Shown here in pieces: positions 28,182-30,537 of a stretch of 34,644 bases of DNA. The stretch spans positions 1 through 34,644 of IMG/VR virus record IMGVR_UViG_3300036781_000264; one strand, 5' to 3'. The notes beneath the pieces were generated by a model. That model did not search any database. It worked only from the letters and a program-made list of their open reading frames with translations, and was not told where the DNA came from. The stretch's first letter is position 1. Each line of letters begins with the position of its first letter. The position numbers and the translations under genes are program-made. The stretch is from a virus.

Positions 28182-28745
28182 CTAGGCCTTGGCGATGGCA
28201 GCTTTGGTGCGCGCCACGGCGTCACGGTTGAAGAACTTATTCAGGTCTTCCAGGTCCAAGAAGAAGTCGGCCTGACGGCGCAGATCGTCGGCGCAGACTT
28301 TGTTCTTTGAGCGCAGCGTCGAGACCACCGTCACGCGCTTGCCCATGTCCTGCAGACGTTCAATCAGGAAGGAGAAGTCGCCGTCGCCGGAGAACAGGAC
28401 AAGGTGATCGACGTGCTGGGCGATCCCTATCATATAGACCGTGATCTCGACATCCATATTACCCTTCAGATGATAGGTGCCAGCACTGTGGTTCGATTGC
28501 GTCTTGAGCGGCTTGGAGATCACCGAGTACCCATTCGAGCGAAGCCAGGACGCCAGCTTCACAACGGGATCGCCGCCTTCGTCACGAAGCGCGGTGAAAT
28601 AATACGGTCGCATCAACAGGCTTTGCTTGGCGAAATAGCCACTGATCAAGCCGAAGTCCAAATCCCATCCCAGCTCCTTCATCGTGTGATAGAGGTTCGC
28701 ACCATCGATAAATACAGCAGTGCGTTCTGTGGGATAAAAGCTCAC
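28182..28745 (-). CDS. NYN (LabA/DUF88, PIN-like) domain ribonuclease
   Basis: 187 residues from GTG at 28745-28743, with GGGAG about ten bases upstream. The whole protein is one NYN domain: VFIDGANLYH (Asp14 and Asn17), KGNMDVEITVYMI (Asp98), LVLFSGDGDFSFLIERL (Asp121 and Asp123), then KRVTVVS and DDLRRQADFFLDLEDL. These acidic residues form the metal site of PIN-like ribonucleases. Relatives are common in alphaproteobacterial chromosomes, mostly uncharacterised. Complete, with all key residues. It is transcribed away from the next gene, and the two share a 144-base divergent promoter region. RNA target unknown; the tRNA-like genes nearby are a candidate. Confidence 0.8.
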   Translation of the reverse strand: MSFYPTERTAVFIDGANLYHTMKELGWDLDFGLISGYFAKQSLLMRPYYFTALRDEGGDPVVKLASWLRSNGYSVISKPLKTQSNHSAGTYHLKGNMDVEITVYMIGIAQHVDHLVLFSGDGDFSFLIERLQDMGKRVTVVSTLRSKNKVCADDLRRQADFFLDLEDLNKFFNRDAVARTKAAIAKA

Positions 28746-28852
28746 GAATATAATCTCCCGGTATGGTTGTATGTATGCGGATCAGTTTGCACTTGCGGAA
28801 TCGTAAAGGAAACCCCCTGGAAGCCCCGAATCGGTCGTGACTCTTTTTCCTT

Positions 28853-28873
28853 GATGTGCGTATCCTGCACATC
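28853..28873. promoter_or_regulatory. Perfect dyad upstream of the duplicated-domain gene
   Basis: GATGTGC (28853-28859), spacer GTATCCT and GCACATC (28867-28873) form a perfect 7+7 dyad in the divergent region, 16 bases before the next start. It could be a repressor operator or, in RNA, a small hairpin. Confidence 0.45.
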
Positions 28874-28889
28874 GAACCAGGGAGGGGTG

Positions 28890-29378
28890 ATGACAAAATC
28901 AATTATTCTAGGCTGCAAAGCCAAGGACAGAGTGAGTGGCTTTTCCGGGATCGTGACTTCTCATCACGAGGAGTTCACAGGGATGATCCAATGGGGCATC
29001 ACCCCGCCTGTCGATAAGAAGAAGCCTGGGGAAGCGCCCGATGGCCTCACTTTCGATCATGAGCAGGTTGCCTATGTCGGCGTCGGTCTGAACGTCAAGC
29101 CGAAGAAGTTCCCGCAGATGGGATTCAAGCTGGGCGATGAGGTAGAAGATCGCGTCAGCGGTTATCGCGGCATCGCCACTTTCCGCAGCGACTTCATGAA
29201 TGGTTGCACCAATGTCAGCGTCCAAGCCAAGATCAAGCCGGGCGACGAGTTCAAGAAGGGAAAGGGATTTCCCCTTCAGTCCCTGAAGCGCGTAGGCGCT
29301 GGCATCAACGATCCCAAGGAAGCCCCCATCACCCCGGCGCCCAAGGGCGGTCCGTCGCAGAAAGTGAGTGAGTTCTAA
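28890..29378 (+). CDS. Phage protein with duplicated small beta (KOW/SH3-like) domain
   Basis: 162 residues from the ATG at 28890 with GGGAGGGG upstream; the frame is open earlier but that part is antisense to the NYN gene. Two copies of one unit: KDRVSGFSGIVTSHHEEFTG (residues 12-31) and EDRVSGYRGIATFRSDFMNG (86-105), each followed by a beta strand. This small unit is common in phage proteins and looks like an SH3/KOW-type barrel, which can bind nucleic acid or protein. A Pro/Lys-rich tail ends the protein. Its stop overlaps the next start by one base, so it is co-translated with the unknown conserved protein that precedes the permuted tRNAs. Confidence 0.65.
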   Translation: MTKSIILGCKAKDRVSGFSGIVTSHHEEFTGMIQWGITPPVDKKKPGEAPDGLTFDHEQVAYVGVGLNVKPKKFPQMGFKLGDEVEDRVSGYRGIATFRSDFMNGCTNVSVQAKIKPGDEFKKGKGFPLQSLKRVGAGINDPKEAPITPAPKGGPSQKVSEF

Positions 29379-30118
29379 TGCCGAAACTGAACCAAATTCT
29401 GGCCGTCGAGAAAGGGATAAAATCCCGCGTCTATGGTCAAATTACAGAGATCAACAAGATCGTGCAGAAGGCCGAGTTGTTCAACGGCTTTTCCAAGACC
29501 TACGAGGCCAAGGATGACGCCGATGAGAAGCTGCCTGCGGAGAGCAAGCGTGTTCAGTATTCTGTCAAGGAGCAGCTTCGCGCTGTGGAGAGACTGACGA
29601 CTGAGCTGATGGACGTGACCGCCCGCAAGGACTTCACCAATTGTGTCGCCAAGGCGCCGGTCGTGGTCGATGGAAAGGAATTGCTGCCGCCCACTCCGGT
29701 CAGCTACCTGCTTTTCTTGGAGAAGCAGTTGACCGATTTCCACACTCTGGCCAAAAACTTGCCGGTGCTGGATGAGGCTGAAACGTGGACGCTGGACGAG
29801 AACTCCGGCCTCATGAAAACGGCTGGCACGCAGACTCACCGCACCAAGAAGGTGTCCAAAGTCATCACACTTGTTCAGCCGACCGTTGAGCATCCTGGCC
29901 AAGCCCAGATGGTGGCCGAAGACGTGATCGCGGGCTTCTGGACGCAGCTCAAGCAGAGCGGCGCGATGCCGAAGCCTGCGAAACAAGCGCTGCTCGACAA
30001 GATCGAGAAGCTGAGCGACGCTGTGAAGGTCGCCCGCGAGGCCGCGAACGTGCAGGAAGTCGTGCCTGACGTGCCGTTGGTCGGCAAAGCTATTTTTGGT
30101 TTTCTCTTGGGAGAATGA
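29378..30118 (+). CDS. Conserved protein of unknown function (DUF7873-like)
   Basis: 246 residues. The start MPKLNQILAVEKGIKSR and the following NGFSKTYEAKDDADEKLPAES match a widespread but uncharacterised family in actinobacteria and phages; I recall it as DUF7873 but could not check. The centre has VVVDGKELLPPTPVSYLLFLEKQL, the rest is helical and ends near the membrane-neutral VPLVGKAIFGFLLGE. No nuclease, ligase or ATPase motif is visible. The gene ends 21 bases before the first pairing strand of the permuted tRNA locus, so the RNA probably shares its transcript. This makes a role with these RNAs a reasonable guess, but it is inference only. Confidence 0.6.
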   Translation: MPKLNQILAVEKGIKSRVYGQITEINKIVQKAELFNGFSKTYEAKDDADEKLPAESKRVQYSVKEQLRAVERLTTELMDVTARKDFTNCVAKAPVVVDGKELLPPTPVSYLLFLEKQLTDFHTLAKNLPVLDEAETWTLDENSGLMKTAGTQTHRTKKVSKVITLVQPTVEHPGQAQMVAEDVIAGFWTQLKQSGAMPKPAKQALLDKIEKLSDAVKVAREAANVQEVVPDVPLVGKAIFGFLLGE

Positions 30119-30123
30119 AGGAG

Positions 30124-30137
30124 CAAGCTCAAGCTTG
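30124..30137 (+). other. Small hairpin before the permuted tRNA locus
   Basis: CAAGC, loop TCAA, GCTTG: a perfect five-pair hairpin between the end of the protein gene and the first permuted tRNA. It may be a processing or boundary element. Confidence 0.4.
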
Positions 30138-30138
30138 T

Positions 30139-30260
30139 GGTGAAACTGAGATAAGAGCGTGAAGGTTCGACTCCTTCTGGGGCCACCACTGCGGCCCCCA
30201 TGCCGGAACGGTAGACGGGACGCGTAAGCGTTGCTCTCAATCAACTTCAGTCTATTCGCC
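30139..30260 (+). tRNA. Circularly permuted tRNA-like gene A (Leu-like)
   Basis: The 3' half comes first: a perfect T arm (GAAGG TTCGACT CCTTC, 30161-30177), acceptor strand TGGGGCC (30178-30184), discriminator A and encoded CCA (30186-30188). After four bases the 5' half follows: acceptor strand GGCCCCCA (30193-30200), then a D arm CCG GAACGGTAGA CGG (30203-30218) of the Leu type. The acceptor strands pair at six or seven positions with one bulge. A GTAA-capped hairpin follows (30220-30231). The outer ends pair: AGAGC (30154-30158) with GCTCT (30233-30237), ACTGAG (30145-30150) with TTCAGT (30246-30251), GGTGAA (30139-30144) with TTCGCC (30255-30260). CTCAA at 30236-30240 would give anticodon CAA; with discriminator A this suggests Leu. 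No downstream 3' half can pair with this 5' half, so it is not an ordinary tRNA. Confidence 0.72.
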
Positions 30261-30293
30261 CCAATCTGAGTATTGCCGCGCCGATCTTATCAA

Positions 30294-30404
30294 GGTGTGC
30301 AGCAAATTTCCTGTTGGTCGCTGGTTCGATTCCAGCCGCCCCCGCCATCTTATGGGGACGTAGCTCAGCGGTAGAGCGGCAGTCTAAATCTGAAGCTGCA
30401 TATT
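30294..30404 (+). tRNA. Circularly permuted tRNA-like gene B
   Basis: The 3' half comes first: variable loop TGGTC (30315-30319), T arm GCTGG TTCGATT CCAGC (30320-30336), acceptor strand CGCCCCC (30337-30343), discriminator G and CCA (30345-30347). After six bases (TCTTAT) the 5' half follows: acceptor strand GGGGACG (30354-30360, six of seven pairs), TA, D arm GCTC AGCGGTA GAGC (30363-30377), and anticodon-stem strand GCAG (30379-30382), which pairs with CTGT (30311-30314). Beyond the anticodon loop, GCTGCATATT (30395-30404) pairs with GGTGTGCAGC (30294-30303), ten pairs including three wobbles. With normal spacing, U33 is 30385 and the triplet would be AAA, but the loop is split between halves, so identity is open. 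Class I otherwise, with normal variable loop. Confidence 0.75.
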
Positions 30405-30440
30405 AAACGCCGAAGATTGGGAGAAGTCGCGGAAGTCAAC

Positions 30441-30473
30441 GCTGGGGTTGCATTCAGGATGCTTGTTCCCAGC
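30441..30473 (+). other. Structured hairpin after permuted tRNA B
   Basis: GCTGGG (30441-30446) pairs with CCCAGC (30468-30473); an inner GCAT/ATGC stem (30450-30453, 30459-30462) closes a five-base loop. Part of the same non-coding stretch; may be a further domain of the RNA. Confidence 0.5.
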
Positions 30474-30482
30474 AACAGGAAA

Positions 30483-30515
30483 GGCCAGGTGTCTCCGGCT
30501 ACGAGGCATCTGGCC
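30483..30515 (+). other. Thirteen-pair hairpin before the next gene
   Basis: 30483-30495 pairs with 30503-30515 (13 pairs, two wobbles) around a seven-base loop CGGCTAC. A TTTT run at 30522-30525 follows only after six more bases, so it is at best a weak terminator. It ends 13 bases before the GGAG ribosome-binding site of the next gene, so it could also regulate or mark processing of that message. Confidence 0.55.
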
Positions 30516-30537
30516 GCCTGCTTTTCTGGAGAAAGAG

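Follow-up and report, generated by a model that had tools for sequence, protein, structure and literature searches.

A DUF7873 protein gene and a paired tRNA-mimic RNA as a putative two-component system of phages and bacteria

The IMG/VR virus record IMGVR_UViG_3300036781_000264, whose whole stretch of 34,644 nucleotides (nt) was analysed here and is called the window, carries a gene for a protein of the DUF7873 family and, directly behind it, a structured RNA that displays two transfer RNA (tRNA) mimics in permuted order. DUF7873 and this permuted tRNA-like RNA belong together, across bacterial phyla and phages. By analogy with Ro60 and its Y RNAs, we consider it probable that the locus is a two-component system, in which DUF7873 and the noncoding RNA would form a particle comparable to Ro60-Y RNA yet separate from it. 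In the window, the two components are as follows.

29378..30118, plus strand: gene of the DUF7873 protein (246 amino acids), the conserved and putative protein partner of the RNA; Pfam PF25283, 294.7 bits, E 8.1e-88
30119..30521, plus strand: paired tRNA-mimic RNA of about 400 nt, ends approximate, taken from just behind the DUF7873 stop codon up to the terminal hairpin's T run

The pairing is carried first of all by its recurrence. A mechanical finder of permuted modules was applied to all 253 usable DUF7873 loci from GenBank phages, IMG/VR and bacterial genomes (a few are duplicates of one record), and matches were counted within 1.2 kb downstream of the gene. At least one module is present at 229 of these loci: the window and its nearest relative (2/2), 12 of 13 GenBank phages, 73/79 and 66/79 viral contigs, and 76 of 80 bacterial loci. 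The modules are mostly paired, with a spacing of 140-180 nt, and matches are rare elsewhere in the same loci; 370 modules were observed downstream, whereas Markov shuffles of these sequences yield 1.15 on average. Homologues of the protein occur in 73 GenBank phages, where they often sit within tRNA arrays, and in at least 466 places in bacterial genomes. The only GenBank phage without a finder match, Microcoleus phage My-WqHQDG, was considered as a counterexample and rejected, its RNA being displaced by about 2 kb through a HEARO insertion. In that phage a HEARO RNA (129 bits) and its open reading frame lie between DUF7873 and the RNA (locus L012, 3950-5461); the RNA is found at ~5560-6000, and the loop of its mimic B holds an extra tRNA-like insertion.

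The anatomy of the RNA in the window, with its two tRNA mimics, is nearly certain. Both modules run in the order T-arm, acceptor 3' strand, short loop, acceptor 5' strand, D-arm, and neither was reported in the window by ARAGORN or by Rfam at gathering thresholds. The parts are listed below, where R1 denotes a covariance model of domain B (33 sequences, 148 positions).

30123..30272, plus strand: domain A, a long irregular helix with mimic A as its cap (alignment and constrained fold)
30127-30131 with 30267-30271, plus strand: basal helix of domain A (88.9% paired; G-C/C-G exchange at the middle pair)
30161..30218, plus strand: tRNA mimic A, permuted (R1 match, 23.6 bits, E 7e-4)
30161-30177, plus strand: T-arm of mimic A
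30178-30184 with 30194-30200, plus strand: acceptor helix of mimic A
30203-30218, plus strand: D-arm of mimic A
30275..30433, plus strand: domain B, nested helices P1-P3 around mimic B (R1, and partial likeness to the YrlA RNA family at 30296-30405)
30275-30280 with 30427-30433, plus strand: helix P1
30283-30288 with 30413-30418, plus strand: helix P2
30289..30295, plus strand: 5' joining segment of domain B, ATCAAGG here (consensus AUCGA)
30296-30304 with 30394-30402, plus strand: helix P3
30320..30377, plus strand: tRNA mimic B, permuted (YrlA alignment and module finder)
30320-30336, plus strand: T-arm of mimic B
30337-30343 with 30354-30360, plus strand: acceptor helix of mimic B
30363-30377, plus strand: D-arm of mimic B
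30403..30412, plus strand: 3' joining segment of domain B, TTAAACGCCG here (consensus CUUAAACG)
30483..30515, plus strand: terminal hairpin, terminator-like (13 base pairs, T-rich tail, loop CGGCTAC)

In this copy, mimic A has a C bulge in its acceptor helix and ACCA in its acceptor loop, and the acceptor loop of mimic B holds GCCA. R1 matches domain B at 30274-30421 with 115.2 bits (E 1.8e-24), the window sequence being itself part of the R1 seed. The conserved single-stranded joins flank P3, AUCGA before it and CUUAAACG after it; across the 132 two-module loci, NTCRA is found at the 5' join in 101 and TWAAA at the 3' join in 93. Terminal-hairpin loops of the type CGGATAT/TGGACAT/CGGCTAC recur at the 3' end of other members of the RNA. 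We note that this conservation exceeds what a plain terminator needs, and the GG of the loop may meet the CC of the acceptor loops.

Comparative analysis corroborates the fold. In a structure alignment of 50 diverse loci, 45 of the 46 pairs of the RNAalifold structure show compensatory change. For a 67-pair consensus structure on the same 50 sequences, 90.0% of cells are paired compared with 64.4% after shuffling, and the covariation score is 0.659, against 0.202 for shuffled alignments and 0.12-0.16 with partners slid. An unbiased scan of column pairs places both T-arms, the acceptor helices, the D-arms and P1-P3 at its top ranks, and with actinobacterial sequences alone these domain B helices are recovered in 25-33 of 33 sequences, together with a terminal hairpin. 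The alignment resolves only part of the lower stem of domain A, a stem on which the single-sequence folds concur. All seven acceptor pairs can form in module A at 121 of the 132 two-module loci and in module B at 124, the latter through 100 distinct helices. With positions mapped by eye, the 50-sequence alignment shows no variation at T54, T55, C56, A58, U8 and one D-loop G, and hardly any at A14 and the second D-loop G. The invariance of these elbow-contact positions indicates that the contacts of the tRNA elbow are under selection.

The RNA also follows the protein from genome to genome. R1 matches beside DUF7873 reach 110 bits at loci outside the seed, and a full-length R1 copy is present in 23 of 24 bacterial genomes with DUF7873, including two of Herpetosiphon in which the RNA is unlinked from the gene; 22 actinobacterial genomes lacking DUF7873 gave no full-length match. 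Among 81 Streptomycetaceae genomes sampled, 49 (~60%) have an intact DUF7873 gene, and every one of the 49 has the full-length RNA, 139-288 nt downstream on the same strand, compared with one of the 32 others (Fisher p 1.4e-21), in which the RNA lies on a small contig. Set against this frequency, the occurrence of DUF7873 in 1 of 100 genomes of an even phylum sample indicates a family that is patchy, and common where present. An initial annotation of this DNA, made from the letters alone, had described a conserved protein followed by permuted tRNA-like RNA and had tied the two together. Both the description, at or near the coordinates it gave, and the expectation of such RNA near other family members are borne out, at the 229 of 253 loci and in all 49 Streptomycetaceae genomes.

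The usual position of the RNA, directly downstream of DUF7873 and on the same strand, could suggest a cis-regulatory 3' untranslated region or attenuator of DUF7873 or of the next gene, or tRNA relics captured by recombination, in each case with no function in trans. We judge this very improbable in view of the strong covariation, the unlinked Herpetosiphon copies, a copy that is divergent from DUF7873 (locus L188), and the lack of conservation of the gene that follows the locus. Loss of the RNA in Herpetosiphon was considered and rejected, as it was found elsewhere in the same chromosomes; by eye, these copies have promoter-like and terminator sequences of their own. The unlinked and divergent copies argue for an RNA that is made as a product of its own, beyond a mere 3' untranslated region.

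What this RNA resembles was first suggested by Rfam. At a relaxed cut-off, 30296-30405 of the window aligns to the whole length of YrlA (RF02553) with 39.8 bits (E 2e-7; gathering score 69), and this sub-threshold alignment moved the question from a permuted tRNA gene to a tRNA mimic. The modules are anticodon-less tRNA mimics: an anticodon hairpin of 5 base pairs and 7 nt follows the D-arm in only 12/132 and 2/132 modules, the anticodon-arm position is a helix running into further conserved helices, and a short loop, mostly of 6-8 nt, bridges the two acceptor ends. As discriminator, the first module usually has A and the second T or G. In Klebsiella phage vB_KpM_Centimanus (locus L009), a GenBank 'tRNA-Stop(tta)' at 4013-4096 overlaps mimic B (finder match 4070-4148) and is probably a mis-call.

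Real split or permuted tRNA genes, with pieces that are joined or used nicked for decoding, would account for the permuted order and for the CCA kept in the acceptor loop of many viral copies (A 42/70, B 38/70). We give this explanation hardly any credence: the anticodon hairpin is missing, with conserved helices at its position, CCA is absent from most bacterial copies (kept in A 14/62, B 16/62), and both modules are bound into one larger covarying structure. The supposition of the initial annotation that tRNA pieces are processed and joined, and that a host ligase or a two-piece product would be needed, falls with it. The modules cap helices of one RNA, and with no anticodon hairpin and one larger fold, neither a joining reaction, a ligase nor a nicked anticodon loop is called for.

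The DUF7873 match of the window protein covers 242 of the 244 model positions (gathering score 27). AlphaFold2, given an alignment of 120 rows, confidently predicts long helices and a long beta hairpin with a predicted local distance difference test score of 95.9 and a predicted template modelling score of 0.75. No meaningful match to DUF7873 was found in PADLOC or NCBIfam and, among open-licence papers, none names DUF7873 and none describes this RNA.

How the protein and the RNA might work together is suggested by the parallel with Ro60. We infer that DUF7873 binds the RNA, most likely through the non-tRNA core, that is P1-P3 with the AUCGA and UUAAACG joins, the domain A helix, or both, and that a stable particle would result. 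In it the RNA would display two rigid anticodon-less mimics, each with an elbow and an acceptor arm whose ends are joined by the short loop. These mimics may attract enzymes that bind the tRNA elbow and acceptor, or keep them occupied, much as the mimic of a Y RNA stands beside the Ro60-binding stem, and could act either as a recruiting platform, as in the Ro60-Y RNA-PNPase assembly, or as a competitor. The phage would then have a copy of its own of a system that many bacteria also carry in their chromosomes. On balance, we lean slightly towards regarding the pair as a new class of ribonucleoprotein, with a protein unrelated to Ro60, distributed over several bacterial phyla and phages and acting as a platform for enzymes that work on tRNA, or as their regulator.

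Several observations weigh against this proposal. The net charge of DUF7873 proteins is about neutral (mean -1.7), which does not favour RNA binding. Foldseek returned nothing at E<=0.001 from PDB or BFVD, and no solved structure resembles the protein convincingly; the best structural looks below threshold are 3kdq_A, an uncharacterised Corynebacterium protein (VIA Z 9.4, 147 residues aligned, root mean square deviation 6.7), and a Vibrio phage protein (E 0.012, TMt 0.58). Neither informs function, and the missing match does not establish a new fold. In the branch of proteobacterial (jumbo) phages (loci L096-L175), 56 of 79 loci have a single module, usually B, so that two mimics are not essential everywhere. 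In these loci mimic A appears to be replaced by other sequence.

An RNA that is phage-borne, often within tRNA arrays, and invariant at its elbow-contact nucleotides might also be a decoy or inhibitor, whose mimics titrate tRNA-attacking or tRNA-modifying enzymes (defence nucleases, RNase P, modification enzymes) while DUF7873 stabilises the RNA; such a decoy would aid phages and protect hosts. We regard this as unlikely. Lacking an anticodon loop and normally a free CCA end, the RNA cannot mimic such targets unless opened, and bacterial chromosomes commonly carry it with no defence genes recurring beside it: no Pfam family recurs as a neighbour among 28 bacterial DUF7873 loci, where PADLOC matches are mainly to protein-kinase models. 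For the same two reasons, the missing loop and the commonness of the pair beyond phages, the earlier suggestion of a decoy for host anticodon nucleases is disfavoured. A decoy role between phage and host is possible for elbow- or acceptor-binding enzymes, not for anticodon nucleases. A particle of DUF7873 and its RNA remains the explanation that we prefer.

The surroundings of the pair in the window were examined as well. The 34.6-kb record has head, tail and integrase genes, and two further genes lie upstream of DUF7873.

28182-28745, minus strand: NYN-domain nuclease gene (PF01936, E 2.6e-29)
28890-29378: duplicated-domain protein gene (phrog_16275, two stretches)

The initial annotation had recognised both, and correctly: the minus-strand NYN protein has the motifs FIDGANL, DVEIT and SGDGDF, and phrog_16275 matches the other protein in two stretches. 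The TAA of the duplicated-domain gene and the ATG of DUF7873 overlap as TAATG, so the translational coupling that had been proposed is plausible. The adjacency of protein gene and RNA holds too, at a shorter distance than the 21 bases first given, the RNA beginning within ~10 bases of the DUF7873 stop. Membership of the two neighbours in one system with the RNA did not survive comparison: by tblastn with the window's proteins, the NYN nuclease is found at 0 of 255 related loci and the duplicated-domain protein at 2 of 255. The DUF7873-RNA unit is independent of both.

The pair has several consequences. RNA-family libraries and tRNA finders miss the RNA, which has no Rfam entry. DUF7873 is given an RNA partner that accompanies it almost without exception in tractable organisms, namely Streptomyces and relatives as well as isolated Arthrobacter and Gordonia phages. 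A Y-RNA-style tRNA mimic that is not tied to Ro60 makes the function of bacterial mimics addressable in a second, independent system and, if our proposal is correct, the design of a tRNA mimic on a stem has more than one protein partner in bacteria.

Among known systems, the permuted two-piece transfer-messenger RNA (tmRNA) of alphaproteobacteria (RF04321) shares the order of T-arm and acceptor, with 19.3 bits over 43 bases; it differs in that this score misses the cut-off of 47 bits and in the tandem mimics and DUF7873 partner of the RNA described here, for which no tag-coding part was found and ARAGORN reported no tmRNA in the window. Circularly permuted tRNA genes of algae and archaea likewise place the 3' half before the 5' half, around a short loop that may hold CCA, but they regain an anticodon arm on splicing, whereas the DUF7873-linked RNA has none and lies within a larger fold. 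Bacteria and phages also have the large ornate RNAs GOLLD, ROOL and OLE, some of which lie near tRNA genes. The DUF7873-linked RNA, which matched none of the three in Rfam scans of the window and other loci, is smaller, bears tRNA mimics and has a dedicated protein gene.

The comparison with Y RNAs has to be weighed at greater length. Bacterial Y RNAs near Ro60 mimic tRNA, according to the account of Chen et al. 2014 given in PMC7790460, and in Deinococcus a Y RNA tethers the Ro60 protein to PNPase (PMC8058203). The RNA could accordingly be proposed to be a bacterial Y RNA of the YrlA family that works with Ro60/Rsr in trans, DUF7873 being an accessory factor. Likeness to YrlA was seen in six loci, and TROVE, the Pfam domain of Ro60, is somewhat commoner in Streptomycetaceae genomes with DUF7873 (32/49) than in the others (12/32; p 0.02). 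TROVE is usually far from DUF7873 in bacteria; a TROVE/Ro60 gene lies ~2.5 kb from it in genome G158 (contig C4:4561415-4564681), the only close pair in the Streptomycetaceae sample, and a TROVE/Ro60-like protein is encoded ~5 kb downstream of the DUF7873-RNA locus in Rhizobium phage RHph_TM21B (L010 record, 113363-114106).

Even so, we find this reading doubtful and give it a low probability. The YrlA scores of 31-41 bits are all below the gathering score, and the Ro60-type stem motif GCGAAUGC...GGAACUA occurs in 0 of 132 DUF7873-linked RNAs and is present in the Ro60-linked RNA of locus L265. With a Pfam model that is weak for these Ro60 proteins, TROVE goes undetected in 12 of the 13 virus records that carry DUF7873 and in 17 of the 49 Streptomycetaceae genomes that carry it; the window's record has no TROVE match. 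Moreover, several genomes have short R1 matches that span only the tRNA mimic (positions 47-102/104) at ~1 kb from a TROVE/Ro60 gene; these are true Y RNAs, at separate loci in the same or related genomes. At L265:5578-5884 (minus strand), two tandem Y-RNA-like RNAs stand beside a weak TROVE match, both with motifs of the type GGCGAAUGC...GGAACUAC. They score 56.8 and 50.8 bits against YrlA, and Ro60-linked candidates in L264 and L265 range from 41 to 57; since the Ro60-linked RNAs of L265 also fall below the gathering score, Rfam YrlA seems too strict for such members.

The DUF7873-linked RNA and the Y RNAs are thus alike in the permuted mimic (T-arm, loop-closed acceptor helix and D-arm, with no anticodon loop), in its placement on a long stem, which binds protein in Y RNA, in the adjoining protein gene and in their sometimes paired occurrence, as in L265. 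They differ in the partner, DUF7873 and not Ro60, in the sub-cut-off scores and the absent CGAAUG...GGAACUA, in the two mimics within one RNA of ~400 nt, the extra nested helices and the AUCGA/UUAAACG joins, and in a locus apart from that of Ro60. With a different partner gene, protein-side stem and locus, the two systems share a mimic module yet are distinct.

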